Below are positions 3,718 through 18,676 of a stretch of DNA of 27,589 bases, piece after piece. Made by a program: the position numbers and the translations under genes. The stretch is taken from positions 1 through 27,589 of the IMG/VR virus record IMGVR_UViG_3300006790_000094. One strand, written 5' to 3'. Numbering within the stretch: the first letter of the stretch is position 1; every line of letters begins with the position of its first letter. The notes beneath the pieces were generated by a model. It saw only the letters and a program-made list of their open reading frames with translations, was not told where the DNA came from and did no database searches. The DNA is from a virus.

Positions 3718-3728
3718 ACTATTTAGTG
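3718..3728 (+). promoter_or_regulatory. Weaker copy of the putative late-promoter element (ACTATTTAGTG)
   Basis: It begins directly after the stop codon of the gp47-46 fusion and lies 6 bases before a strong Shine-Dalgarno (AGGAGG, 3733-3738) for the holin-like gene. It matches ACTATTTA but has G where the five other copies have T. Position and similarity suggest the start of a new transcription unit, but the mismatch makes this the least certain copy. Confidence 0.4.
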
Positions 3729-6160: not shown

Positions 6161-7744
6161 ATGTCTTTTTCCTTGACAAAGGAAGATATTCTAAAAGAGA
6201 TTGTTAAGTCGGGTAAGGATCCGGTTTATTTTATTAACAATTACGCTAGGATATCACACCCTATGAAAGGTTTAATTCCTTTTAAAACTTACGATTTTCA
6301 AACTGATCTCATACAAGACTTTAATGACTATCGTTTTAATGTTATCTTAAAAGCTAGACAGCTAGGTATATCAACAATTACTGCGGCATATGTTGCCTGG
6401 ATGATGCTTTTTCATCGTGATAAAAACGTATTAGTTATCGCAACTAAGTTTGGTACAGCTGCAAATTTAGTTAAGAAAGTTAAAGCGATACACAAGCATT
6501 TACCAAAATGGATGAAGATAGCCAACATTTCAATTGACAATAGGACTTCTTTTGAGCTTTCAAATGGCTCACAAATTAAAGCTTCGTCTACATCATCAGA
6601 TGCTGGTCGTTCTGAAGCATTGTCGTTGCTGGTTATAGACGAGGCTGCTCACGTTGATGGGTTAGAGGAGCTATGGACCGGCCTATACCCTACACTTTCT
6701 ACTGGTGGTCGCTGTATTGCTCTTTCCACACCAAATGGTGTTGGTAATTGGTTTCATCAGACCTGCATGGACGCAGAAATTAGCAATAATGATTTTCACA
6801 TGACAACTCTACCATGGGATGTACATCCTGATAGAGACCAAGAGTGGTTTGAGAAAGAAACTAAAAATATGTCAAGAAGGCAAATCGCTCAAGAGCTAGA
6901 GTGCAACTTTAATATGTCTGGAGAGACTGTTTTTCATCCAGAAGATATGGAGTTGATACAAGCTAATTTATGTGATCCTAAGTACAAAACAGGGTTTGAT
7001 AGAAATTTATGGATCTGGGAAGAATATAAGCCCGACAGTACATATTTTATAACTGCAGACGTTGCCCGAGGCGACGGCGAAGACTACTCGACTTTCTTAA
7101 TATTCAAAATTGAAACTAGTGAGATTGTAGCAGAGTATCAAGGCAAGGCAGCTCCAGATTTGTTTGCAAATATACTATTTCAGACTGGCGTAGAGTATGG
7201 TAAATCATTAATAGTGGTAGAAAACAATTCTGTTGGCTGGGCTGTCTTAAGTAAACTACAAGAAGCAGGATATCCCAACATATACTACTCAAAAAAGTCT
7301 ACACATGAGCAAGTTGAATCTTATTTAGCTGAATCATCTGGCGTAGTTCCAGGTTTTTCAACTACAATGAAAACTAGACCATTGATAGTAGCTAAATTTG
7401 AAGAGTTTGTCAGAAATAAACTAATTAACATAAAGTCTAAGCGTTTATTCAACGAAATGAAGACATTTGTTTGGCATAATGGGAAACCGCAAGCTATGAA
7501 AAAACACAATGATGATTTAATTATGGCTTGTGCTATTTGCTGTTGGATTAGAGATACGGTATATGCCTCTAATCAAAGATCTGCAGATTACCAGAAGGCG
7601 TTTTTATCTTCAATGGCTACATCGAATAAATCATTGAACACTTCTATACCAGGTATGATAGCATATGAGAAGCTGCAGCGCGACCAAAAATTTGAAAAAG
7701 ATTTACAACAACATAAAGACTTTTTGTGGTTGCTTAAGGGGTAA
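6161..7744 (+). CDS. 17: Terminase large subunit (gp17-like DNA packaging motor)
   Basis: This 527-aa protein (T4 gp17 is 610) drives DNA into the prohead with its N-terminal ATPase and cuts concatemers with its C-terminal nuclease. The ATPase has a Walker A-like loop KARQLGIST at 64-72, Walker B LLVIDEAAH (D160, E161) and coupling motif ALSTPNG at 187-193. The RNase H-like nuclease has D300 in ITADVARGDGEDYS, E354 in VVENNS and D451/D452 in KHNDDLIMA, equivalent to the T4 acidic triad. The Walker A loop lacks lysine at the usual GK(S/T) position but has K64 at its start, a known variation in phage terminases. Only 3 bases separate it from the portal gene, so packaging motor and docking ring are co-expressed. 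Confidence 0.95.
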   Translation: MSFSLTKEDILKEIVKSGKDPVYFINNYARISHPMKGLIPFKTYDFQTDLIQDFNDYRFNVILKARQLGISTITAAYVAWMMLFHRDKNVLVIATKFGTAANLVKKVKAIHKHLPKWMKIANISIDNRTSFELSNGSQIKASSTSSDAGRSEALSLLVIDEAAHVDGLEELWTGLYPTLSTGGRCIALSTPNGVGNWFHQTCMDAEISNNDFHMTTLPWDVHPDRDQEWFEKETKNMSRRQIAQELECNFNMSGETVFHPEDMELIQANLCDPKYKTGFDRNLWIWEEYKPDSTYFITADVARGDGEDYSTFLIFKIETSEIVAEYQGKAAPDLFANILFQTGVEYGKSLIVVENNSVGWAVLSKLQEAGYPNIYYSKKSTHEQVESYLAESSGVVPGFSTTMKTRPLIVAKFEEFVRNKLINIKSKRLFNEMKTFVWHNGKPQAMKKHNDDLIMACAICCWIRDTVYASNQRSADYQKAFLSSMATSNKSLNTSIPGMIAYEKLQRDQKFEKDLQQHKDFLWLLKG

Positions 7745-7747
7745 AAA

Positions 7748-9721
7748 ATGGCGAGAACTATAAATAAAAAAAATGACAGAAATCCTAATAGTCCGCTTTT
7801 TAAGCAATTAACAAAGCTACTTTCAGGTCCTTTGGTAAAATACAGGCGCCAGGATACGCGCCAGCTTAAAAGACGCTATCTAGATAAGTATAAAACTCGC
7901 TTTAGATCTGCCTCAGGTCAAGAGTTTAAAAAATCTCAGTATAGCGAGGTATATGGCGCCCTACAAACTGATTATTATGCCAACCAAAATCGAATGGATC
8001 GCTATGTTGACTTTGATCAAATGGAGTATACACCTGAGATTGCCTCAGCGCTAGACATATACGCTGATGAGATGACAACCTCGTCTGTATACCGAGATAT
8101 ATTAAACATCTCGTGCAGCAATCAAGAAATAAAAGCTGTCTTAGAGACACTTTTTTATAATATTTTAAATATTCAGTTCAATCTATACGGCTGGGCTCGA
8201 TCAATGTGCAAGTATGGTGATTACTTTGTCTATTTGGATATTGAGCAGGATGAAGGTGTTAAGAATGCAATTGGATTACCAGCAAATGAGCTTGAGAGAC
8301 TAGAAGGCGAAGACGAGAATAATCCAAATTACATACAGTATCAATGGAATTCAGCCGGAATAACTCTAGAAAACTGGCAGGTTGGACATTTTAGAGTTTT
8401 AGGTAATGATAAGTTTGCACCATATGGTACTTCAATTCTTGAGCCTGCTAGAAGAATTTGGCGCCAGCTTACGCTCCTTGAAGACGCTGTAATGGCATAT
8501 AGAATTGTTCGTTCACCCGAACGTCGTGTTTTTAAGATTGATGTTGGTAATATCCCTCCCGAAGATGTTGAACAATACATGCAAAAAGTCATGACTCAGA
8601 TGAAAAGAAATCAAATTGTAGATGTTAATACAGGCCGCGTTGATTTGAGATATAATCCTTTGAGTATTGAAGAAGACTACTACATACCAGTTCGTGGCAC
8701 TCAGTCAGGTACAGAAATTACAACTGTTGGCGGCGGCAAATATACTGGCGATATCGAAGACGTAAAATACTTAAGAGATAAATTATTTAGTGCACTTAAA
8801 ATACCAATGTCTTATTTGTCACGTGGCGATGGAGCTGATGAAGATAAGGCAACTTTGGCACAAAAAGACATTCGTTTTGCTAGAACTATTCAAAGGCTAC
8901 AAAGGTCTCTGACGTCAGAGCTTGAAAAAATGGCTGTTATTCATTTATTTACAATGGGTTACCGCGGTAATGATTTACTTTCATTTAAGTTATCTCTCAA
9001 TAATCCATCAAAATTGGCTGAAATACAAGAATTAGAGCATTGGAAAGCACGTTTTGAGGCAGCTGATGGTGCATCTCAAGGTTACTTCAGCCGTCGATGG
9101 GTCGCGAAAAATATTCTAGATATCAGTGAAGAAGAATTTGATAGAATGCAAGTCGAGATGTTCTATGACAGAAAACATGACTTTGCACTAGAGCAAGTCG
9201 GAGAAGCGATGGCTGGCGAAGCAGGCGCAGCCGGCGGCTTGGGTGATTTAGGCGGGGATCCTGCTGGAGATTTAGGAGGCGATTTAGGTGTACCACCTGA
9301 TACGCCTGATCTAGATGCTCCTGGTGGAGAAGATGCCCCGACCACTCCAGGCGGAGATACACCAGCCACTCCAGAAGAAGCCGGCCCTCTATTAGCCGCC
9401 CCCGGCGCCGCACCTCCAGCCAAAAGAGACGTTGATGAATATGGCCGATCTTACTCGGAAAACAAAGGCAAAAGGTACTATCATAAAAATAGGGATGATA
9501 GAAATGGCAGAAGATTAGCAATTCATGGGCTTGCAGGCCTATCTAAGAAAGATTCGCATGCGGGCAAAAGAGAGCTTGATGGCTTAACAAAGTTTTCTTA
9601 TAGTTTTTCTGAAAATTTAAAACCTAATTACTACGATGAGGAAGAGAAAAAACTTCTAAACGAAAATAATGAGATTAAAAAACTAATACAGTCCCTGGAG
9701 ACATCAAAAAATGAAGTTTAG
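7748..9721 (+). CDS. 20: Portal vertex protein (gp20-like) with long acidic Gly/Pro-rich tail
   Basis: This 657-aa protein (T4 gp20 is 524) forms the dodecameric ring through which DNA enters and to which the neck attaches. The conserved core runs to about residue 480. It includes DRYVDFDQMEYTPEIASALD near the N-terminus, the segment around YGDYFVYLD, and GGGKYTGDIEDVKYLRDKLF before the helix containing KIPMSYL, all typical of the gp20 family. Residues from about 485 to 557 are a low-complexity stretch of G, A, D and P (for example GLGDLGGDPAGDLGGDLG). About 100 charged residues with DEYGRSYSENKGKRYY and a helical end follow. The extension may be flexible or removed during maturation. The following gene starts within its last 11 bases. 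Confidence 0.93.
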   Translation: MARTINKKNDRNPNSPLFKQLTKLLSGPLVKYRRQDTRQLKRRYLDKYKTRFRSASGQEFKKSQYSEVYGALQTDYYANQNRMDRYVDFDQMEYTPEIASALDIYADEMTTSSVYRDILNISCSNQEIKAVLETLFYNILNIQFNLYGWARSMCKYGDYFVYLDIEQDEGVKNAIGLPANELERLEGEDENNPNYIQYQWNSAGITLENWQVGHFRVLGNDKFAPYGTSILEPARRIWRQLTLLEDAVMAYRIVRSPERRVFKIDVGNIPPEDVEQYMQKVMTQMKRNQIVDVNTGRVDLRYNPLSIEEDYYIPVRGTQSGTEITTVGGGKYTGDIEDVKYLRDKLFSALKIPMSYLSRGDGADEDKATLAQKDIRFARTIQRLQRSLTSELEKMAVIHLFTMGYRGNDLLSFKLSLNNPSKLAEIQELEHWKARFEAADGASQGYFSRRWVAKNILDISEEEFDRMQVEMFYDRKHDFALEQVGEAMAGEAGAAGGLGDLGGDPAGDLGGDLGVPPDTPDLDAPGGEDAPTTPGGDTPATPEEAGPLLAAPGAAPPAKRDVDEYGRSYSENKGKRYYHKNRDDRNGRRLAIHGLAGLSKKDSHAGKRELDGLTKFSYSFSENLKPNYYDEEEKKLLNENNEIKKLIQSLETSKNEV

Positions 9722-11046: not shown

Positions 11047-11355
11047 ATGGGATTAATATATTTTATTTTATGTGCATATGGATTAACGTACATTTTAGTT
11101 TACGGATCTATATTTAACTCAATAAGGCCGAAAGAAGGCAAACTAGGTGAGCTTTTTCACTGTCCTCTATGTACAGGCTTCTGGGCAGGCGTTTTTTTGT
11201 GGAGTATCAATTGTTTTACAGAACTATTTACCTATGATTACAATATAATAAACGCTTTGCTTTTGGGATGTTTGTCTGCCGGGACAAGTTATTTCTTAAG
11301 TTCAATATTAGACGATTTCGGCTTAAAATTTAGAAATACACAAGGGGGTGATTAA
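11047..11355 (+). CDS. Small inner-membrane protein with CPLCTGFWAG motif
   Basis: The start is taken at ATG 11047, with AGGTGAT just upstream. A TTG three bases earlier is possible but less likely. The 102-aa product has a hydrophobic N-terminal segment (about residues 2-22), then FHCPLCTGFWAGVFLW leading into a second segment, and a third near residues 67-88 (IINALLLGCLSAGTSYFLSS). The CPxCxGFW pattern just before a membrane helix resembles that of small DUF1360-like membrane proteins, though this assignment is from memory of the pattern. A membrane protein inside a head-assembly operon is notable because T4 proheads assemble on the inner membrane. Any such link is inference. Confidence 0.6.
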   Translation: MGLIYFILCAYGLTYILVYGSIFNSIRPKEGKLGELFHCPLCTGFWAGVFLWSINCFTELFTYDYNIINALLLGCLSAGTSYFLSSILDDFGLKFRNTQGGD

Positions 11356-11442: not shown

Positions 11443-11550
11443 ATGAAGAAAGAAAGCACAAAACCATCTCCTGCTTCATATGTTTGGGGTGTAAAAAACC
11501 CAAAAAAAGTTGCAAACAAATATAATGGATATGGGGTGGTTAAAAAATAA
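11443..11550 (+). CDS. 35-aa basic microprotein upstream of the prohead protease
   Basis: The ATG at 11443 has GAGG with 6 bases of spacing, and the stop TAA shares its last A with the prohead protease start (TAATG), so the two are probably translationally coupled. The product (MKKESTKPSPASYVWGVKNP, then KKVANKYNGYGVVKK) is basic, with tyrosine and glycine near the end. There is no membrane span or cysteine. T4 places small prohead-core proteins just before gene 21, which makes a core or assembly peptide possible. I cannot recognise homology. Ribosome site and coupling support translation better than length alone would. Confidence 0.55.
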   Translation: MKKESTKPSPASYVWGVKNPKKVANKYNGYGVVKK

Positions 11551-12182
11551 TGTCGAAGCAGCTCTTACAAGAATATTTTGAGTTATGCCCTGAGGGTAGG
11601 TGCCCTGTCCATGCTCTAAACGAATCTGAAAAAAGAAACGTTATGGATGGAGCAGTCTATCTTGTTGGTATTGTACAGAAAGCTGGCACAAAAAATGGTA
11701 ATGGTCGAGTTTACCGTCGCGAGACTTTAGAGAGGGAAGTTAAAAACTATCAAAGAGCGATAGAGGAGCGTAGGTCTTTAGGCGAGTTAGACCATCCAGA
11801 CGATTCTGTTGTTAACTTAAAGAACTGCTCTCATTTAATAACTAAATTGTGGTGGCAGGGCGACGACGTTATGGGAAAAATTGAAGTGCTTGATACACCT
11901 TCAGGAAAAATTTTAAAAGATTTAGTAAAAGCTAATGTCAAGTTAGGTATTTCTTCTAGAGGGCTGGGCTCCGTTAAGCAAGAAAAAGATAAAACAATTG
12001 TTGAAGATGATTTTCAGCTAATTTGCTTTGATATGGTTTCTGAACCTTCTACTCCGGGTGCCTACGTGTCACCAGCAAGAGCAAAAACTCCTATCAATAT
12101 GGATCCTCAAATAAATGTTTATTTAAATGAGTCTAAGGATTCCAAAATTGATAATTTAATAGATTCAATACTAAGAGATTAA
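11550..12182 (+). CDS. 21: Prohead maturation protease (gp21-like)
   Basis: This 210-aa protein (T4 gp21 is 212) is the serine protease inside the prohead that cuts the scaffold and capsid proteins after assembly. Visible family features are NGNGRVYRRETLEREV near residue 50, the catalytic histidine H82 in GELDHPDDS, and the catalytic serine in GISSRGLGS (residues 133-141). FDMVSEPSTPGAYV follows at 160-173. The N-terminus carries an unusual CPEGRCPVH with two cysteines. It overlaps the 35-aa gene by one base and is followed after one base by the next gene. Its likely substrates, gp22 and gp23, are encoded 3.5-5 kb downstream. Confidence 0.93.
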   Translation: MSKQLLQEYFELCPEGRCPVHALNESEKRNVMDGAVYLVGIVQKAGTKNGNGRVYRRETLEREVKNYQRAIEERRSLGELDHPDDSVVNLKNCSHLITKLWWQGDDVMGKIEVLDTPSGKILKDLVKANVKLGISSRGLGSVKQEKDKTIVEDDFQLICFDMVSEPSTPGAYVSPARAKTPINMDPQINVYLNESKDSKIDNLIDSILRD

Positions 12183-12183
12183 T

Positions 12184-12573
12184 ATGAAAGCAAATGAGTT
12201 TAAAAAATTAATAAAGCCAATAATAAAACAAACTATAAAAGAAGTTCTTTTAGAAGAGGGTGTTTTATCTAACATTGTTTCTGAGGTTGCCATAGGCTTG
12301 CAGAATCAAAGAGTTGTAACAGAAGGCGTTACAGTCACAAAAAATACTGAAGACTTAGAAGCAAAAGCTGAGCGTTTGGAGCAACAAAGGCAAGAAAAAA
12401 TTAAAAAGCTAAATGAATCTTCCAAGCTGGGAGGAGTTTTCACAGGCACCACACCGTTAGCTGAGTCTTCAGGGCAAGGCCCCTTAGCTGGTACCAGTCC
12501 TACAGATGCTGGTGTAGATATTACTGCAATTCAACAAATTGCAAATGGCAAATGGAAACATTTAATTAAATAG
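12184..12573 (+). CDS. Small helical protein between protease and bS21, function unknown
   Basis: This 129-aa protein starts one base after the gp21 stop. The first 80 residues form helices (MKANEFKKLIKPIIKQTIKE, then VLLEEGVLSNIVSEV and a charged coiled coil to about 77). The last 50 are G/S/T-rich and flexible (GGVFTGTTPLAESSGQGPLA), ending ITAIQQIANGKWKHLIK. The layout of helix, linker and short terminal helix, and the place next to the prohead protease, fit an internal head or prohead-core protein. I do not recognise a family. A tail peptide on a scaffold is one reading, not shown by the sequence. Confidence 0.6.
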   Translation: MKANEFKKLIKPIIKQTIKEVLLEEGVLSNIVSEVAIGLQNQRVVTEGVTVTKNTEDLEAKAERLEQQRQEKIKKLNESSKLGGVFTGTTPLAESSGQGPLAGTSPTDAGVDITAIQQIANGKWKHLIK

Positions 12574-12581
12574 GAAATACA

Positions 12582-12818
12582 ATGTCCAAGCAAAGAGCAG
12601 TTAATGTTAAAGTACATATTAGAGAGACAAAAGGCGACATAACCCGCCTAATAAAGAAATTTATGAAAAAGGTTAAAAAAGAAAGGGTGTTAGACGACTA
12701 TTTAGATAGAAGATTTTTTGAGAAACCTTCGTCTAAAAGAAGAAAAGAAAGAATCAAAAAGAAAAGAAATGCCCAAAAAGCACAGCAAGAAAGAAACAAA
12801 AAACTAGATATAAAGTAG
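12582..12818 (+). CDS. rpsU: Ribosomal protein bS21 homologue
   Basis: This 78-aa basic protein (bacterial bS21 is about 70) follows a clear AGGAAA ribosome site. The bS21 pattern is visible in order: a beta start VNVKVHIRETKGDITRLIK, the helix KKFMKKVKKERVLDDYL, the hallmark RRFFEKPSSKRRKERIKK and a basic tail to the end. In bacteria bS21 sits on the small ribosomal subunit near the anti-Shine-Dalgarno end of 16S rRNA and affects translation initiation. Phage copies are known, notably in SAR11 phages, and may replace the host protein. Here it is inserted in the head-gene operon between the protease and virion genes, so it would be made with late genes if the operon is late. Confidence 0.9.
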   Translation: MSKQRAVNVKVHIRETKGDITRLIKKFMKKVKKERVLDDYLDRRFFEKPSSKRRKERIKKKRNAQKAQQERNKKLDIK

Positions 12819-12828
12819 GAGAATAAAA

Positions 12829-13401
12829 ATGGCAGTAGACGCAAAAACAGGACAGCCAATATTTGGTGGCTCACATGGTGTAGGATTAAGTCATGTTGGC
12901 TCTTACCAATCTGCTGGAACACCTTTTTTAACTGCATCAACTTTGGGCGCAGAAGCGAACAAAGGATCAGTACAGAGAATCGAATTTCCTCGCGTTGCAA
13001 AATCTGTAACAGTGCAGGTTGTTCCACACAGTCTCCTCGGTGGAGCTACTGTAGCCAGTGATCCAATTGTTGTTTCTTTCGGAGAATCTCGCGAATCAGA
13101 TGGAACATTAAGAGTTGGCGAGAATGTATATTTAACAAATGGCACTAATGCTCCGATGCAATATTTAAATAAGCATGGGTTTACGCTGCAATTAGTTAGC
13201 GGCTCAACTGATGGTGTATTATATGGCGAAAGCGTCACTCTTGGGGCGCGCACTGATCATGTTAATATATCAGTCAATGGTTTCGGCGGCGCCGTCGCCA
13301 GCGGGTCGTTTCAGATATATGCTGAACTAACAAATATTTTAGCAGAGAGAATGCCTGATAATTACATCAGTGGCTCAGGCATTAACGTTTCTGCTGGTTA
13401 A
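12829..13401 (+). CDS. Beta-rich virion-like protein, function unknown
   Basis: This 190-aa protein has a strong ribosome site (TAGGAG) and a composition typical of phage structural proteins: rich in G, S, T and V, few charges, alternating hydrophobic residues. Recognisable stretches are PIFGGSHGVGLSHVGSYQSA at the N-terminus and VTLGARTDHVNISVNGFGGA near the end. There is no signal peptide or catalytic motif. It lies between bS21 and the fibre gene, 15 bases before the latter, so it may decorate the head or attach the fibre. I have an impression of similar proteins in marine T4-like phages but cannot name one. Confidence 0.65.
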   Translation: MAVDAKTGQPIFGGSHGVGLSHVGSYQSAGTPFLTASTLGAEANKGSVQRIEFPRVAKSVTVQVVPHSLLGGATVASDPIVVSFGESRESDGTLRVGENVYLTNGTNAPMQYLNKHGFTLQLVSGSTDGVLYGESVTLGARTDHVNISVNGFGGAVASGSFQIYAELTNILAERMPDNYISGSGINVSAG

Positions 13402-13416
13402 TGAAGGAGTATATAC

Positions 13417-15612
13417 ATGCCAACAGCGTCAGGAAGTTTAGCATTTTTAGGAGCAGCGAGATTCCAAGGTTATTGGGATGCTACAACTAATTCAGCTACC
13501 GGTTCAGGTTTACCTGGCCAAAAGCTGAATGGTGTTGTTAATGGGTTATTTTCTACTGGAAGCTCCTCTAACGCTGGTGGCTACGCAAATGCAACCGGCC
13601 TAACCGCCTCAATAGGTGATTATTGGCAGGTCACAGGATCAGGTACACACAATGTAGATGGCTCAACATCATGGGTGCTTAATGATTGGTGCGTATATTC
13701 TGGTTCAGCTGGGTCCTCAGGCAATTGGTCTAGGCTTTCATTTGATGATACAATTGCATCTATTGTTTTAGGCGATTTATCCGCTAGTTCTTTTCATATT
13801 GGCAGTACAGCAAATGACAAGCATGTAATATTTGCTACAGGGTCCGTTCATAGCGGCTCTAGTAATTTTACTTTTGATTATACAAATAATTTATTAGCAG
13901 TTGCTGGAAATATTACTGCTTCGACAAACATTTCAGCTTCAGCTTTTTATGGAGATGGCTCTAATTTAGAAAATGTTGGCGGCGGAGCCATTTCTTCCGT
14001 TACAAACGGTGCTAATGACAGAATTGCCACTTTTTCAGCTGCTAGCACTCTTAATGGAGAAGCTAATTTAACATTTAGCTCAGCAAACTTACTCACCGTT
14101 GCGGGCAATATCACAGCCTCAACAAACATCTCAGCTTCTGCTTTTTACGGAGATGGAGCAAACTTAACAAATCTCCCAATCTCAACTGTTGCAAATGGAG
14201 CGGATAATAGACTAGCAACATTTTCGTCTGCAGATGCTTTAAATGGAGAGGCTAATCTAACATTTGATGGTAGCACGAACTTATTAACAGTTGGTGGTAA
14301 TATAACTGGATCACAATTTTATGGTGGAAATATCTACAATAAGGATGATCCTGATACTTTTATAGATTTTGAAACAGCAAACAATCAAATCAATTTCATG
14401 GCAGGCGGTTTTTTTGTTGCCACGGCCCTCGGCACCGGCGCAAAGAATTTTAAAGTCAATACTTTACTTGATGATGTTGATTTCATAGTTCATGGCGATA
14501 ATACTGCAAACTTAATTTATGCAAATGCAGGCCTAGACAGGGTTGGTATAGTTACCAGCTCTCCCGAGCATATTTTATCAGTTACAGGCACATTGGGTGT
14601 TAGTGGTGACACGACTATTTCTGGATCTTCCTATCTTAAGAACGCAATTGTCACTCCTGGGGCATCTGGAGGCACCGGAATAACAGTTACACATACTGAT
14701 GTTGATCAAAATGGTATTACAATTAATGCCACTAATACAACAACTGGTGGCTCTTTGTTGATTAATCATGATGACGACACAACTGCAGCTGCAGACCGAA
14801 AAACATCTTTTGCAATTGATTTTGATAAAACAGGCGTCCAGGCGCAGTCTACAACTGCTTCCTTTGTTGCTTCAGAGATTATCATGGTTGATTCAGCAAA
14901 TAACCATGCAGGTGGAACAGTTCACATGACTGGATCTACGATATTTGTTACTTCCTCGCATGTTGGTGGCTTAAATACAACAAACACAGGCTTGAGAGTT
15001 ATAACTCAAGGTGCTGATACAAACTACGACGCACTTTTCTTAGGTGGTAATGTAGGTATTGGAGATTCGGCTCCGCTTACAAAATTGTCAGTTGTTGCTA
15101 ACTCACCCAACAACACTGCATTGTTTGTTAGAAATGATGGTAATGATGCAAACAGAAATGGTATATTTATTTCGTGCGGCAAAGATGCTCCTGGAACAAA
15201 TGGCGATATTATTTGGCTTCTTTTGGCTGATGGAGACAGTGATGGATCCAGTGGCGTTATCTCAAGAATTAGGTATGATACAGGCGGCGCCGGCGCTGTA
15301 TTAGAGTCTGCTTCAGATAAGAGAATTAAAACTGATATTAAGCCCTCAGAGGTCAATGCTTTAGAAATATTAAATAATATTCCTCTTTCAGAATTCAGAA
15401 TGGCCAAGAAGAATAATCCAGTTGGCGAACTCAATAGAGTTGGCTTTGTTGCACAAGATTGTGAAGAAGCTTGGCCGGAAATGGTTAGTGAGATGGAGGA
15501 CAGTGACTATGCACATAAAATTAAAACTGTCGCCCCAGCAACTTTAATACCTGTTTTAGTCAAAGCTGTGCAAGAATTATCAGCTGAAATAGAGGCTCTT
15601 AAGAACAAGTAG
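13417..15612 (+). CDS. Fibre or spike protein with C-terminal S74 self-cleaving chaperone
   Basis: This 731-aa protein has a G/S/T/N-rich body and a C-terminal intramolecular chaperone of the peptidase S74 (endosialidase-tail) type. The chaperone begins at about S633 in ESASDKRIKTDIK, continues through LNRVGFVAQDCEEAWPEMV and ends in a helix PVLVKAVQELSAEIEALKN. In this family the domain trimerises the fibre, then cuts itself off just before the SD pair, here between A632 and S633. The N-terminal 110 residues hold GYWDATTNS and a tryptophan-rich stretch that may attach to the virion. The middle has about 65-residue repeats of GNITASTNISASAFYGDG. The gene precedes the scaffold gene, an unusual place for a fibre. 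Receptor or surface-glycan binding is the expected role. Confidence 0.85.
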   Translation: MPTASGSLAFLGAARFQGYWDATTNSATGSGLPGQKLNGVVNGLFSTGSSSNAGGYANATGLTASIGDYWQVTGSGTHNVDGSTSWVLNDWCVYSGSAGSSGNWSRLSFDDTIASIVLGDLSASSFHIGSTANDKHVIFATGSVHSGSSNFTFDYTNNLLAVAGNITASTNISASAFYGDGSNLENVGGGAISSVTNGANDRIATFSAASTLNGEANLTFSSANLLTVAGNITASTNISASAFYGDGANLTNLPISTVANGADNRLATFSSADALNGEANLTFDGSTNLLTVGGNITGSQFYGGNIYNKDDPDTFIDFETANNQINFMAGGFFVATALGTGAKNFKVNTLLDDVDFIVHGDNTANLIYANAGLDRVGIVTSSPEHILSVTGTLGVSGDTTISGSSYLKNAIVTPGASGGTGITVTHTDVDQNGITINATNTTTGGSLLINHDDDTTAAADRKTSFAIDFDKTGVQAQSTTASFVASEIIMVDSANNHAGGTVHMTGSTIFVTSSHVGGLNTTNTGLRVITQGADTNYDALFLGGNVGIGDSAPLTKLSVVANSPNNTALFVRNDGNDANRNGIFISCGKDAPGTNGDIIWLLLADGDSDGSSGVISRIRYDTGGAGAVLESASDKRIKTDIKPSEVNALEILNNIPLSEFRMAKKNNPVGELNRVGFVAQDCEEAWPEMVSEMEDSDYAHKIKTVAPATLIPVLVKAVQELSAEIEALKNK
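13891..14330 (+). repeat. Tandem 190-200 bp repeats inside the fibre gene
   Basis: Two near-identical coding units begin at 13891 and 14089, and a third diverged and shortened unit at 14281. Each begins LL(A/T)V(A/G)GNIT; the first two continue ASTNISASAFYGDG. Unit spacing is 198 and 192 bases (66 and 64 residues). DNA identity is clear but synonymous changes are present, so the duplication is not recent. Such repeats are common in fibre shafts and can change length by recombination. Confidence 0.75.
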
Positions 15613-15664: not shown

Positions 15665-15675
15665 ACTATTTATTA
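15665..15675 (+). promoter_or_regulatory. Putative late promoter element before the scaffold gene
   Basis: ACTATTTATTA lies in the 91-base gap between the fibre and scaffold genes, 29 bases before the scaffold ATG. It is identical over 11 bases to the copies at 18756 and 22473. A strong gp22-gp23 transcription unit ending in the terminator at 18696 is implied. Confidence 0.55.
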
Positions 15676-15703: not shown

Positions 15704-16873
15704 ATGTCCGATATGTTAGAACAAGCTATTATAGACGCGGCAGCTTTGAAGGAGGCTGCTACAAAAAATGCTGAAACACTAGTACTAGAGAAATATTCTT
15801 CACAAATTAAAGATGCAGTAGAGACCTTGTTAGAACAAGATGATCCTGCTGCTGGAATGATGTCAGATGCACCGGCTGAAGAGGAAAAATCATCAGTCTT
15901 GGAGCATATTCCTTTAGCTGTGACAAGCGAAGATGAAGAAGAGATTGAAATTCCATTAGATAAATTAACTGAAGAGTTAGCTATATTTAACGAGAGCCTT
16001 CGTCTTGGTGGCGATTCACATAATATTTCTGAATTGTTTGAACATAATCTAGTTGATATCAATGAAGAACACTTACACGAATTAGCCGAGGAAGAGCTTG
16101 AAGAAGATTTAGACTTAGAAGAGGCCGAGGAGCTTGACGAAGAGCTAGATCTGGAAGAAGGAAGCTGCAGCGAAGATGAGTCAGTTGATGAAATGCATTG
16201 CGGCACCAAGAAAGATAGAAAAGACGAGAATCTAGACGAAGAAATTGATCTAGATGAAGATATTGTAGAGGCAATTGCTGAACAACTTACTGTAGATCTC
16301 CCCGGCCCAACAAAAACTGGATGGGCAGGCATGCCAGAGAAACTAATACAATTAGCCGAAGAAGAACTTTTGGCAATTGAGCAAGATTCCAAAGTTAAAG
16401 AAGAAAAAGCTGCTATGAGAAAAGCTGTTGCTAAGCTTCAAGCAGCAAACGAATCTTTGGATCATAAAAATAGCAAATTACAAGAGACGCTTAAGCAAGC
16501 GTCCAGCCAATTACTGAAGAGTAAAGAAGTAATTATGACTTTGCAGAATAAATTAGAAGAATCTAATTTGACAAATGCTAAATTACTTTATCAAAATAAG
16601 GCAATGACTAGCGACTCCCTGAATGAGCGACAAAAAGAAAAACTTGTCGAAGCTGTATCAAACGCCGAAACAATTGAAGAAGCAAAAATGATATTTGAGA
16701 CACTTCAAAACACAGTGGGCAGCACCTCTCGCAAATCGCAGCCAAAATCACTGAGTGAGGCCGTACAAAAAACTTCTTCTGTAATCTTGTCTGCTAGAAG
16801 AAATTCTGCGCAACAAGAAAAATCAAACCCAACGATTGATCGTTGGAAATTCCTTGCGGGAATAGACAAATAA
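15704..16873 (+). CDS. 22: Prohead core scaffold protein (gp22-like)
   Basis: This 389-aa protein (T4 gp22 is 269) forms the inner scaffold on which the capsid assembles and is then degraded by the prohead protease. The N-terminus has alternating helices (EQAIIDAAALKEAATKNAET). Residues about 95-195 are extremely acidic, with runs such as EEELEEDLDLEEAEELDEEL. The C-terminal half is coiled coil with the family-like segment LTNAKLLYQNKAMTSDSLNE, then RQKEKLVEAVSNAETIEEAK and FETLQNTV. The long acidic insert accounts for the extra length. The ribosome site GGGAG lies about 9 bases upstream and the gene is 18 bases from gp23, so scaffold and shell are co-transcribed. Confidence 0.9.
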   Translation: MSDMLEQAIIDAAALKEAATKNAETLVLEKYSSQIKDAVETLLEQDDPAAGMMSDAPAEEEKSSVLEHIPLAVTSEDEEEIEIPLDKLTEELAIFNESLRLGGDSHNISELFEHNLVDINEEHLHELAEEELEEDLDLEEAEELDEELDLEEGSCSEDESVDEMHCGTKKDRKDENLDEEIDLDEDIVEAIAEQLTVDLPGPTKTGWAGMPEKLIQLAEEELLAIEQDSKVKEEKAAMRKAVAKLQAANESLDHKNSKLQETLKQASSQLLKSKEVIMTLQNKLEESNLTNAKLLYQNKAMTSDSLNERQKEKLVEAVSNAETIEEAKMIFETLQNTVGSTSRKSQPKSLSEAVQKTSSVILSARRNSAQQEKSNPTIDRWKFLAGIDK

Positions 16874-16891
16874 TATATAGGAGAATTAACA

Positions 16892-18676
16892 ATGTCTGTT
16901 TTACAAAAATTAACTGAAGGTATCGTTGAAAGATCCCTACAGAGAGAAGGTGCTGCCCTACTAGATAAGTGGGAGGCTACTGGACTTCTTGAGGGTATCG
17001 ATGGCGATAACCAAAAGGCGGGAATGGCCCGTCTATTAGAGAACCAGGCTGCTCAGCTTCTTAAAGAGGCTTCATCCATGGCAGCTGGTGATGTCGAAGG
17101 CTTCGCTAGCGTTGCTTTCCCAATTGTTCGTCGTGTTTTCGGTGGACTTCTTGCAAATGACCTCGTGTCAGTTCAGCCTATGAGCTTGCCTTCTGGTCTG
17201 ATTTTCTTCCTTGATTTTACCTACCAAGATGGTCGTATGGGCCAAACAGAAGATAAGTCAGTCTACGGTGGTGGAGTGGTTGCTGCTGAGATCACCGGTG
17301 GTGTCACTGACATTACTGAAGCAGGTGGCGGCTTCTACAACATGGCCAATGCTTACTCACATGCTACGGCATCTGCAACTGCTAACATGGACTTAATTGT
17401 CATTGATTCTGTAACAAACAGCTCTTTGACCGAGGCCAATAAGAAGTCTCTTCGTTTTGACCCAGATCTTTTAGATGATCTTGAGACGAATACTTCAAAG
17501 AAAGTTGCTGTTGTTGGTGTTGCAATTGGCGATCTAGATCGCTTCAATAGAGATCATGCTACAGCTGTTTCTTTGCTTAACGCAAAGTATGGCGACGGCG
17601 ATACAACTCAGGATGATGATCATAATGCTACTCTTGTTCGTCGACTTTCCAGAGTTGAGAAGTTGGATTCCAGTGGTAATGTTGATCTAGCAAATGGTAC
17701 TGAGTACCTTGTTCTTACAATGGTCGGCGCTTCATTGGCAAACTTCAATGATGATGACACAATTGGCTTGGTTTATCCTAAGTCAGATGCCTTCCAAGCC
17801 GGCGACGGCCTAGGCTCTGTTGTTGGTACTTCTAACTGGCCTCTTGAAGAGCCTAGTCCTGGTACCGGCAATGATACTGGCTTATCGTCTGGTAAGAACA
17901 CGATTGCTGAGATTGATATCAAAGTTGACTCAATCGCTGTGACCGCTCAGACCAAAAAGCTCAAAGCTAAGTGGACCCCTGAGCTTGGTCAAGATCTTAA
18001 TGCTTACCACAACCTTGATGCAGAGGTTGAGCTTACGCAGATTCTTTCCGAGCAAATTGCTCTAGAGATCGACCGTGAGATTGTTAACGACTTGGTTGAC
18101 GGTGCAACAGCTGGTACGTACTACTGGTCACGTTCACCTGGTTTGTTTGTTAATCGCCTCACTGGTGCTGAGCTTGGTGCAACTGCTGCGTCACCTGACT
18201 TCACAGGTACAGTCAGCGAGTGGTATGAGACTCTCATTGAGACAATCAACGATGTCTCGGCTCAGATCCACAGAAAGACTCTCCGTGGTGGAGCAAACTT
18301 CTTGGTGACATCACCTGAGGTTGCTAATATCCTTGAGTTTACTGCTGGTTTCCGCGCTAGCGTCACACACGATGCTGATAAGGGTACTGTTGGTGCAGTT
18401 AATGTGGGCTCTGTTTCACGTAAGTTTGAGGTCTATGTTGATCCTTACTTCCCAAGAAATGTGATCCTCGTTGGTCGTAAGGGCGGAAGCTTCCTTGAAA
18501 GTGGCTTCGTATACGCTCCTTATGTCCCACTACAGGTCACTCCGACGATCTTCGGTACCGAGGACTTCGTGCCACGTAAAGGCGTGATGACTCGCTACGC
18601 GAAGAAGATGGTCCGTCCAGATATGTACGGTCTTGTCATTTGTCGCGGTCTTCTTGGTGAGTCTGGCGCAAGCTAA
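16892..18676 (+). CDS. 23: Major capsid protein (gp23-like)
   Basis: This 594-aa protein (T4 gp23 is 521) forms the hexamers of the head shell. Family features are PIVRRVFGGLLANDLVSVQP followed by MSLPSGLIFFLDF at about 76-110, the DREIVNDLVDGA helix region, and a C-terminal part with KFEVYVDPYFPRNVILVGRK, FVYAPYVPLQ and KKMVRPDMYG. The N-terminus is a helical propeptide. A gp21-type cleavage site LKE|A (E59|A60) sits where T4 gp23 is cut (E65). Codon use leans toward G/C-ended codons more than in neighbouring genes, as expected for the most abundant protein. TAGGAG precedes the start and a terminator follows 20 bases after the stop. Confidence 0.96.
   Translation: MSVLQKLTEGIVERSLQREGAALLDKWEATGLLEGIDGDNQKAGMARLLENQAAQLLKEASSMAAGDVEGFASVAFPIVRRVFGGLLANDLVSVQPMSLPSGLIFFLDFTYQDGRMGQTEDKSVYGGGVVAAEITGGVTDITEAGGGFYNMANAYSHATASATANMDLIVIDSVTNSSLTEANKKSLRFDPDLLDDLETNTSKKVAVVGVAIGDLDRFNRDHATAVSLLNAKYGDGDTTQDDDHNATLVRRLSRVEKLDSSGNVDLANGTEYLVLTMVGASLANFNDDDTIGLVYPKSDAFQAGDGLGSVVGTSNWPLEEPSPGTGNDTGLSSGKNTIAEIDIKVDSIAVTAQTKKLKAKWTPELGQDLNAYHNLDAEVELTQILSEQIALEIDREIVNDLVDGATAGTYYWSRSPGLFVNRLTGAELGATAASPDFTGTVSEWYETLIETINDVSAQIHRKTLRGGANFLVTSPEVANILEFTAGFRASVTHDADKGTVGAVNVGSVSRKFEVYVDPYFPRNVILVGRKGGSFLESGFVYAPYVPLQVTPTIFGTEDFVPRKGVMTRYAKKMVRPDMYGLVICRGLLGESGAS

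Follow-up and report, generated by a model that had tools for sequence, protein, structure and literature searches.

A true bS21 gene fixed among the head genes of a T4-like phage lineage, with an embedded candidate promoter element

Viruses might remodel the ribosomes of their hosts by exchanging a ribosomal protein for one of their own, a possibility raised here by a small gene in a virus record of 27,589 nucleotides (IMGVR_UViG_3300006790_000094; the whole stretch analysed is called the window below). The head and tail module of this 27.6-kb record is T4-like and lies on the plus strand. According to the original prediction, the gene encodes a bS21 protein embedded between the prohead protease and the virion genes, which the phage may load onto host ribosomes during late expression, to the advantage of its own mRNAs. 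The identity of the gene, its hold on this place, the signals around it and the readings that they permit are taken in turn.

The bS21 gene and its place among the head genes

The genes and sites of the head region are as follows.

6161..7744, plus strand: terminase large subunit (phrog_2, 5.1e-55)
7748..9721, plus strand: portal protein (phrog_213, 9.5e-78)
11047..11355, plus strand: p11044, a small gene (DUF1360 match just under the cut-off)
11550..12182, plus strand: prohead core protease, Peptidase_S77, gp21-like (PF03420, 2.4e-32; phrog_207)
12184..12573, plus strand: p12184, 129 residues, upstream of bS21 and adjoining it in most loci
12572..12575, plus strand: AGGA, the weak Shine-Dalgarno (SD) site of bS21, from the sequence
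12582..12818, plus strand: bS21 gene, 78 residues, ATG start (PF01165, TIGR00030, PHROG 21469)
12708..12731, plus strand: codons of the bS21 signature RRFFEKPS, residues 43-50 (translation; alignment with PDB bS21 chains)
12765..12767, plus strand: codon of R62, the ungapped equivalent of the anti-SD-blocking Y54 of F. johnsoniae (counted from the KPS motif; 7JIL sequence)
12829..13401, plus strand: p12829, 190 residues, fast-evolving, directly downstream of bS21 (no family match)
13417..15612, plus strand: fibre-like protein, 731 residues, with an S74 chaperone domain (PF13884, 1.3e-10)
15704..16873, plus strand: scaffold-like gene before the capsid gene (position and synteny; no strong family match)
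16892..18676, plus strand: major capsid protein, gp23 family (PF07068, 2.2e-74)

The predicted 78-residue protein was borne out, in that an open reading frame lies exactly at the predicted place, its translation contains the hallmark RRFFEKPSSKRRKERIKK, and its product exceeds the curated cut-offs of both Pfam PF01165 (E 2.7e-9, 37 bits against 27) and NCBIfam TIGR00030 (E 7e-10, 38.6 bits against 28.95), in addition to matching PHROG 21469, 'ribosomal protein S21', at E 8.8e-4. Among the 39 PDB sequence matches at E of at most 10, the top 36 are bS21 chains (best E 3.7e-4), mitochondrial and chloroplast forms included, and the lowest three are one unrelated enzyme. The product is strongly basic, and a basic C-terminal helix follows the EKPS motif. 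Two long helices (20-43 and 49-75) and a short one (13-16) are predicted in a model of pLDDT 84 and pTM 0.45; with this model, Foldseek gave as its sole match the bS21 chain 7qv1_b at E 3.6, and a VIA search gave no match at Z of at least 2, neither search giving a significant match in the PDB. In an alignment of 25 sequences, the first long helix carries, with some departures, the clade signature RFMKKVKKER, the constancy of which is due in part to the search pattern used. At a place where the aligned bacterial PDB chains have mostly KAG, most members of the clade have KER, so that the fit of the clade protein to the ribosome may differ. By analogy with its family, the window protein is likely to associate with ribosomes.

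The window has the head module of a T4-like myovirus, with a gp21-type protease, a gp23-type capsid protein, portal, terminase, and contractile sheath (PF03420 and PF07068 as listed, with phrog_213, phrog_2, and phrog_23). The gene does lie between the protease and virion genes, as had been proposed, with p12184 intervening on the protease side and scaffold and capsid genes downstream; it starts 8 nt past the stop of p12184 and ends 10 nt ahead of p12829. A bS21 query yielded 41 viral loci, in all of which, as in the window, the recognisable head genes share the strand of bS21. The gene order, traced along whatever length each contig offers and interrupted at some points by insertions, is portal, three genes, protease, p12184, bS21, p12829, (fibre genes), scaffold, and capsid. 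Since this first sample had been picked by bS21 itself, a second was drawn by the protease: among the best 80 of 498 protease relatives, bS21 follows p12184 on the same strand in 71, the remaining nine contigs stop within 548 nt of the protease, and no longer contig is without bS21, the rows being not all independent (15 of the 80 contigs were already in the bS21 sample and others are near-copies). Thus bS21 is a fixed part of the locus in close relatives, and its slot between protease and capsid is older than the clade, since Microcystis phage Mel-JY01 and the uncultured phage LR756508 have bS21 between the same two genes.

The gene is also under purifying selection. The window and locus L002 encode identical bS21 proteins while about 21% of their synonymous sites differ (pS 0.21); dN/dS is 0.07-0.23 in six further comparisons with the window, the one with L003 being saturated. 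Ten other pairs gave 0.03-0.17 in nine cases and saturation in the tenth. All these ratios are rough, because many synonymous distances are near saturation. For p12829, the five computable comparisons gave 0.31-0.56. Together with the 41 viral relatives and the protease-based sample, the low ratios show the gene to be there by more than chance: the window encodes a true bS21, fixed among the head genes of this T4-like phage lineage.

Two further observations concern the neighbouring genes. Fibre-like genes are inserted at varying places around bS21 in relatives, and in the window 12829-15612 holds p12829 and the S74 gene; given a fast-evolving p12829 and an S74 fibre-like gene amid head genes, with shifting fibre insertions, a head fibre is possible. 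A 35-residue reading frame at 11443-11550, read by hand, has a stop that overlaps the protease start.

Shine-Dalgarno use and the host

The original prediction spoke of many strong AGGAGG sites. This was overstated as to the full motif, which stands ahead of only 3 of the 28 window genes scored (3747, 19367, 19832), and held for SD sites of at least 4 nt, which lead 20 of the 28 as against 14 of 135 internal ATGs. SD use was defined as the fraction of genes preceded by an SD of 4 nt or longer, with one gene-calling script for all records and internal ATGs as control. It is 0.73 in the window and 0.58, 0.64, and 0.59 in three long relatives, which measure 158-190 kb (internal ATGs 0.11-0.14 in these four), 0.47 in Mel-JY01 (internal ATGs 0.07), and 0.55 in Pelagibacter phage HTVC008M. 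Values of 0.05 and 0.06 were obtained for Flavobacterium phage immuto and for the host contigs of a Flavobacteriaceae metagenome-assembled genome (MAG), the internal-ATG controls across all these records being 0.07-0.22. LR756508 is SD-poor (0.12 against a control of 0.31 in the 33.6 kb examined). Among the 40 loci L003-L042, 38 have at least five scored genes, and SD use is at least 0.45 in every one of the 38. Late genes are SD-led in 28 of 33 cases and replication or other non-structural genes in 22 of 34 (Fisher p 0.09).

Tyr54 of F. johnsoniae bS21 is reported to block the anti-SD, and its replacement in Y54A to raise the translation of SD reporters (PMC9976891). No aromatic residue stands at the equivalent position in any of the 40 loci scored out of 41 (L036 being unscored), the window having R62. 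In a control of 26 Bacteroidota bS21 rows, this position holds Y in 7 and R in 18, with one unscored; arginine being common there, it does not exclude other members of the phylum. With SD-led genes in the window and its relatives, the host is probably a bacterium that makes use of SD sites, which Bacteroidia do not, and the SD use of the phage genes argues against a Bacteroidia host.

The earlier proposal that bS21 phylogeny would reveal the host lineage failed, as none was identified. The tree (101 rows, 77 columns) sampled two bacterial phyla and three PDB rows; 12 of its 93 inner branches are starred, 7 of the 61 bacterial loci are missing from it, and the fragment L022 was dropped. In it the 41 clade rows cluster, HTVC008M joins them, and Mel-JY01 and LR756508 stand apart, each on a long branch; poorly resolved as the tree is, the phage cluster is placed closer to the rows from Bacteroidota than to those from the phylum of Halobacteriovorax (fork support 87). 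The bS21 signature was no better a guide, a scan of genome contigs for FMKKVKK having returned 589 stretches, none of which encodes a bS21 relative. A TerL search of genome contigs found two in MAGs, one assigned to Flavobacteriaceae (L158, PAAD01000063.1), a relative with bS21, and one to Halobacteriovorax, a more distant relative with no bS21 within the 17.5 kb examined. This route was likewise set aside, the MAG binning of phage contigs being weak and the SD data contradicting the Flavobacteriaceae assignment: L158 is SD-rich (0.61) inside a MAG whose own contigs are SD-poor, and is therefore probably misbinned. The samples are, to judge from their IMG numbers, presumably marine. Other features of the three long relatives (G001, G003, G008) are genes for GroEL, Hsp20, PhoH, and tRNAs, with GuaB in two of the three, and several replication genes whose best match, among the references used, is immuto.

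The ACTATTTA element as a candidate late promoter

An 8-mer, ACTATTTA, recurs in the window, and three of its sites bear on the bS21 locus.

11223..11230, plus strand: ACTATTTA within p11044, ahead of the protease gene; candidate late promoter for the unit running from protease to bS21
12697..12704, plus strand: ACTATTTA inside bS21, codons GAC TAT TTA (D39 Y40 L41)
15665..15672, plus strand: ACTATTTA 39 nt before the scaffold-like gene

The other plus-strand sites are at 3718, 18756, 19336, 22473, and 27128; six of the eight are intergenic, and the opposite strand has none. The coding strand is likewise favoured in the three long relatives (19 against 3, 14 against 2, and 23 against 4). Out of 279 permuted 8-mers, those as frequent as ACTATTTA number 0 in the window, 1 in G001, 28 in G003, and 0 in G008, so that in G003 the total count alone is not striking. 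Across the window and the long relatives, 45 of 64 sites are intergenic, with intergenic DNA just 6-8% of the sequence, and 37 of these 45 lie 11-62 nt ahead of a start codon. Of 25 loci, 19 have the element ahead of the scaffold-like gene, in 18 cases at a distance of 40-44 nt. In p11044, the codon of Leu60 is CTA in 31 of 32 rows, against a background of 0.11 of Leu codons.

At bS21 itself, the 42 loci (window included) have ACTATTTA inside the gene in 12 cases, in the gap between bS21 and p12829 in 9, and at neither place in 21, in some of which p12829 was not recognised; in the nine gap cases, out of 30 loci without it in bS21, it lies 29-59 nt before p12829. Among 83 distinct bS21 rows, 21 match D/S/N-Y-L, and all 19 with D use GAC TAT TTA (codon backgrounds 0.30, 0.71, and 0.27), although several of these rows are close relatives and 19 is thus not a number of independent events; the two rows with S or N are without ACTATTTA.

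A further test was made on 51 additional distinct loci, again with 279 permuted 8-mers as control. In 43 of 49, ACTATTTA lies 100-700 nt ahead of the protease; it precedes the scaffold-like gene in 21 of 23, is inside bS21 in 10 of 42 (in one of these, L150, outside the DYL codons), and occupies the gap before p12829 in 5 of 35. At none of these four places does a permuted 8-mer equal it, although ahead of the protease one attains 36 of 49, a score that conservation of coding DNA can produce.

Beyond the clade, ACTATTTA occurs in immuto 26-27 nt before the portal gene and two other genes, its total there (17 plus, 5 minus) being inside the permuted range (maximum 21). Mel-JY01 has no excess in the 79.6 kb examined (4 plus, 3 minus), and the 33.6 kb of LR756508 examined contain none. 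In HTVC008M (L043/L048) there are 2 on the plus and 16 on the minus strand, which amounts to TAAATAGT on the strand of most genes; this recalls the T4-type late promoter. As to known promoter types in the window, ATAAATA, the T4-type late promoter, was found 13 times against 10.3 expected, which is no excess, and a sigma-70 scan found 25 against 25.9 expected. A gp55-type late sigma factor is matched weakly in each of the three long relatives (E 5e-6 to 2e-5). TATAAATA precedes a ribosome-binding site and ATG in 6 of 31 cases, as against 37 of 64 for ACTATTTA. No related report of ACTATTTA as a phage late promoter was found in the literature, as judged by title and the start of the abstract, and among the matches listed for ACTATTTAT, none looks related by title.

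From its sequence context, ACTATTTA is a candidate late promoter of this phage lineage, and one that, standing also before several immuto genes, is directly testable. Its presence inside a bS21 gene has not been seen described before, unlike phage bS21 near head genes. The gene may even be bifunctional, encoding a ribosomal protein while carrying an embedded promoter for p12829 that fixes the D-Y-L residues in the helix of the protein, with the same element, as found within p11044 and some 40 nt ahead of the scaffold-like gene, serving as late promoter of the lineage and so tying bS21 synthesis to head assembly; this is a tentative proposal, towards which we remain slightly sceptical. A separate observation is that the C-terminal codons of bS21 (window 12804-12821) are unusually constant among relatives (L75 CTA in 15 of 19, I77 ATA in 14 of 15); they adjoin the ribosome-binding site of p12829 and could be a second DNA or RNA signal.

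Possible roles and known systems

The preferred reading, which we judge to be evenly poised between right and wrong, is that a lineage-fixed true bS21 is made late, exchanges with host bS21, and keeps or retunes initiation for SD-led late phage mRNAs. Late transcription would start near ACTATTTA in p11044 and cover protease, p12184, and bS21 as a single unit, p12829 being served from a second start inside bS21; phage bS21 would thus appear late, together with the head proteins. On the 30S subunit, beside the 3' end of 16S rRNA, it would then exchange with host bS21, which is only loosely bound there, and keep or retune initiation as SD-led late phage mRNAs surge. The earlier idea of a late bS21 acting for the phage stands as to identity, head-gene place, and constraint; late expression, which gene order and the ACTATTTA element suggest, is plausible because bS21 runs in the same direction as the head genes and a candidate late promoter lies upstream of it. 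The transcription of bS21 along with structural genes that Chen et al. describe for Bacteroidetes phages (PMC9723584) accords with this. Binding to host ribosomes is likely, given family membership and a published relative: pelagiphage bS21 is reported to be incorporated into E. coli 70S ribosomes (PMC6375957). A preference of the phage protein for phage mRNAs is put forward purely as a hypothesis.

Several results count against the preferred reading. Late genes do not exceed the others significantly in SD use; most of the clade has KER instead of KAG, and the model (pTM 0.45) is without a significant PDB match; bS21 and the structural genes are described as not forming one operon in the phages of Chen et al. 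(PMC9723584); and ribosomes with pelagiphage bS21 are reported to make only about 5% of the control product in vitro (PMC6375957). The same account gives about 75% for tagged E. coli bS21, so that the tag alone does not explain the loss. This last result suits an unlikely alternative, in which phage bS21 lowers the activity of host ribosomes on host mRNAs and the phage gains reduced competition only. The departure of the clade from bacterial bS21 in the first long helix, none of the 589 FMKKVKK stretches being bS21, fits it too; against it, the in vitro assay used the bS21 of a phage of a different host, and the gene belongs with late head genes, at a stage that calls for sustained translation.

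It is also improbable that the phage merely tops up a bS21 that is limiting or easily lost, the ribosomes staying active and no mRNA being selected. The description of bS21 as dynamic and exchangeable (PMC6375957) agrees with such a supply, as does the lack of a significant difference in SD use between late and other phage genes; the altered sequence common to the clade would be left unexplained.

That a basic bS21-derived protein serves prohead assembly or is injected with the DNA is very unlikely, for all its constant place among head genes and its strongly basic character. Its N-terminus is basic, as the capsid-targeting sequences of T4 are not known to be, and its bS21 signature is kept under purifying selection. 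Searched in full, the records of Flavobacterium phage immuto (terminase 43.8% identical) and Rhodothermus phage RM378, two phages whose capsid genes are related, gave no bS21 match. In favour of this reading, encapsidation of phage bS21 has been raised as a possibility by Chen et al. (PMC9723584).

Hardly credible, finally, is an unmasking of the anti-SD, in which a Bacteroidia host bS21 would hide the anti-SD and a phage bS21 without Tyr54 would free it and let SD-led phage mRNAs win: R62 for Y54, the want of aromatic residues in the clade, the SD-led genes, the Y54A result (PMC9976891), the placing of L158 in a Flavobacteriaceae MAG, and the lean of the poorly resolved two-phylum tree towards Bacteroidota all accord with it, yet the non-structural genes, many needed before late bS21, are SD-led too, which lowers it, the contrast of L158 with its MAG suggests misbinning, and immuto, a Flavobacterium phage, is SD-poor. 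Returning to the lineage at large, bS21 is present in every locus long enough to tell, with SD-led genes and no anti-SD-blocking residue, which suggests that its benefit is independent of the Bacteroidia anti-SD mechanism; such independence would narrow the possible mechanisms.

Among known systems, tblastn of bS21 against phage records gave no match, a failure of sensitivity, since a profile search finds bS21 in Mel-JY01 and LR756508. Mel-JY01 (PP395634), on which no literature was found, resembles the window in its order of protease, small gene, RpsU, further genes, and capsid on the same strand, and in its SD-led genes; it differs in a diverged bS21, a terminase 41.6% identical, and the lack of a ACTATTTA excess. 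As a named phage with a recorded host and the same arrangement, it is a possible test system if in culture. In the 484-kb LR756508, too, bS21 shares the strand of the protease and scaffold/capsid genes and lies between them; this phage is unlike the window in being SD-poor, in the very long branch of its bS21, and in having no ACTATTTA in the region examined. By eye, its 574-residue protease frame (L046 532-2256) has a long insert that looks like an intein, and several small protease-scaffold proteins (L046 4759-6835) start with an LR..I.EE-type motif, which p12184 partly resembles; these are possibly capsid-targeting sequences.

The parallel with SAR11 phages in the original prediction is a loose one: HTVC008M shares a phage-encoded bS21 and not the head-gene place, its bS21 adjoining cobS about 16 kb from the capsid gene, and pelagimyophage bS21 is said to belong to no specific gene cluster (PMC7029224). 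The bS21 of F. johnsoniae (7JIL, PMC9976891) is of the same family and has the same KPS motif; it has the anti-SD-sequestering Y54 and KTG where the window phage has R62 and KER.

The closest published counterpart is that of Chen et al. (2022, PMC9723584), who had already reported phage bS21 near head genes and the late-takeover idea; no other report of bS21 among head genes was found among the papers listed. Among their 900 bS21 phages, a prohead protease lies within ten genes in 310 and a major capsid protein in 154, and the Bacteroidetes-phage bS21 is described as transcribed along with structural genes. As in the window, the bS21 of these freshwater Bacteroidetes phages, which are myoviruses, lies few genes from terminase, portal, prohead protease, and capsid, and a late role is proposed for it; unlike in the window, it is reported on the strand opposite to the head genes, with an aromatic residue at position 54 in all 61. 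The window locus therefore joins a published kind, and is distinct from the phages of Chen et al. in its same-strand arrangement, in having no aromatic residue at position 54, and in its SD-led genes.
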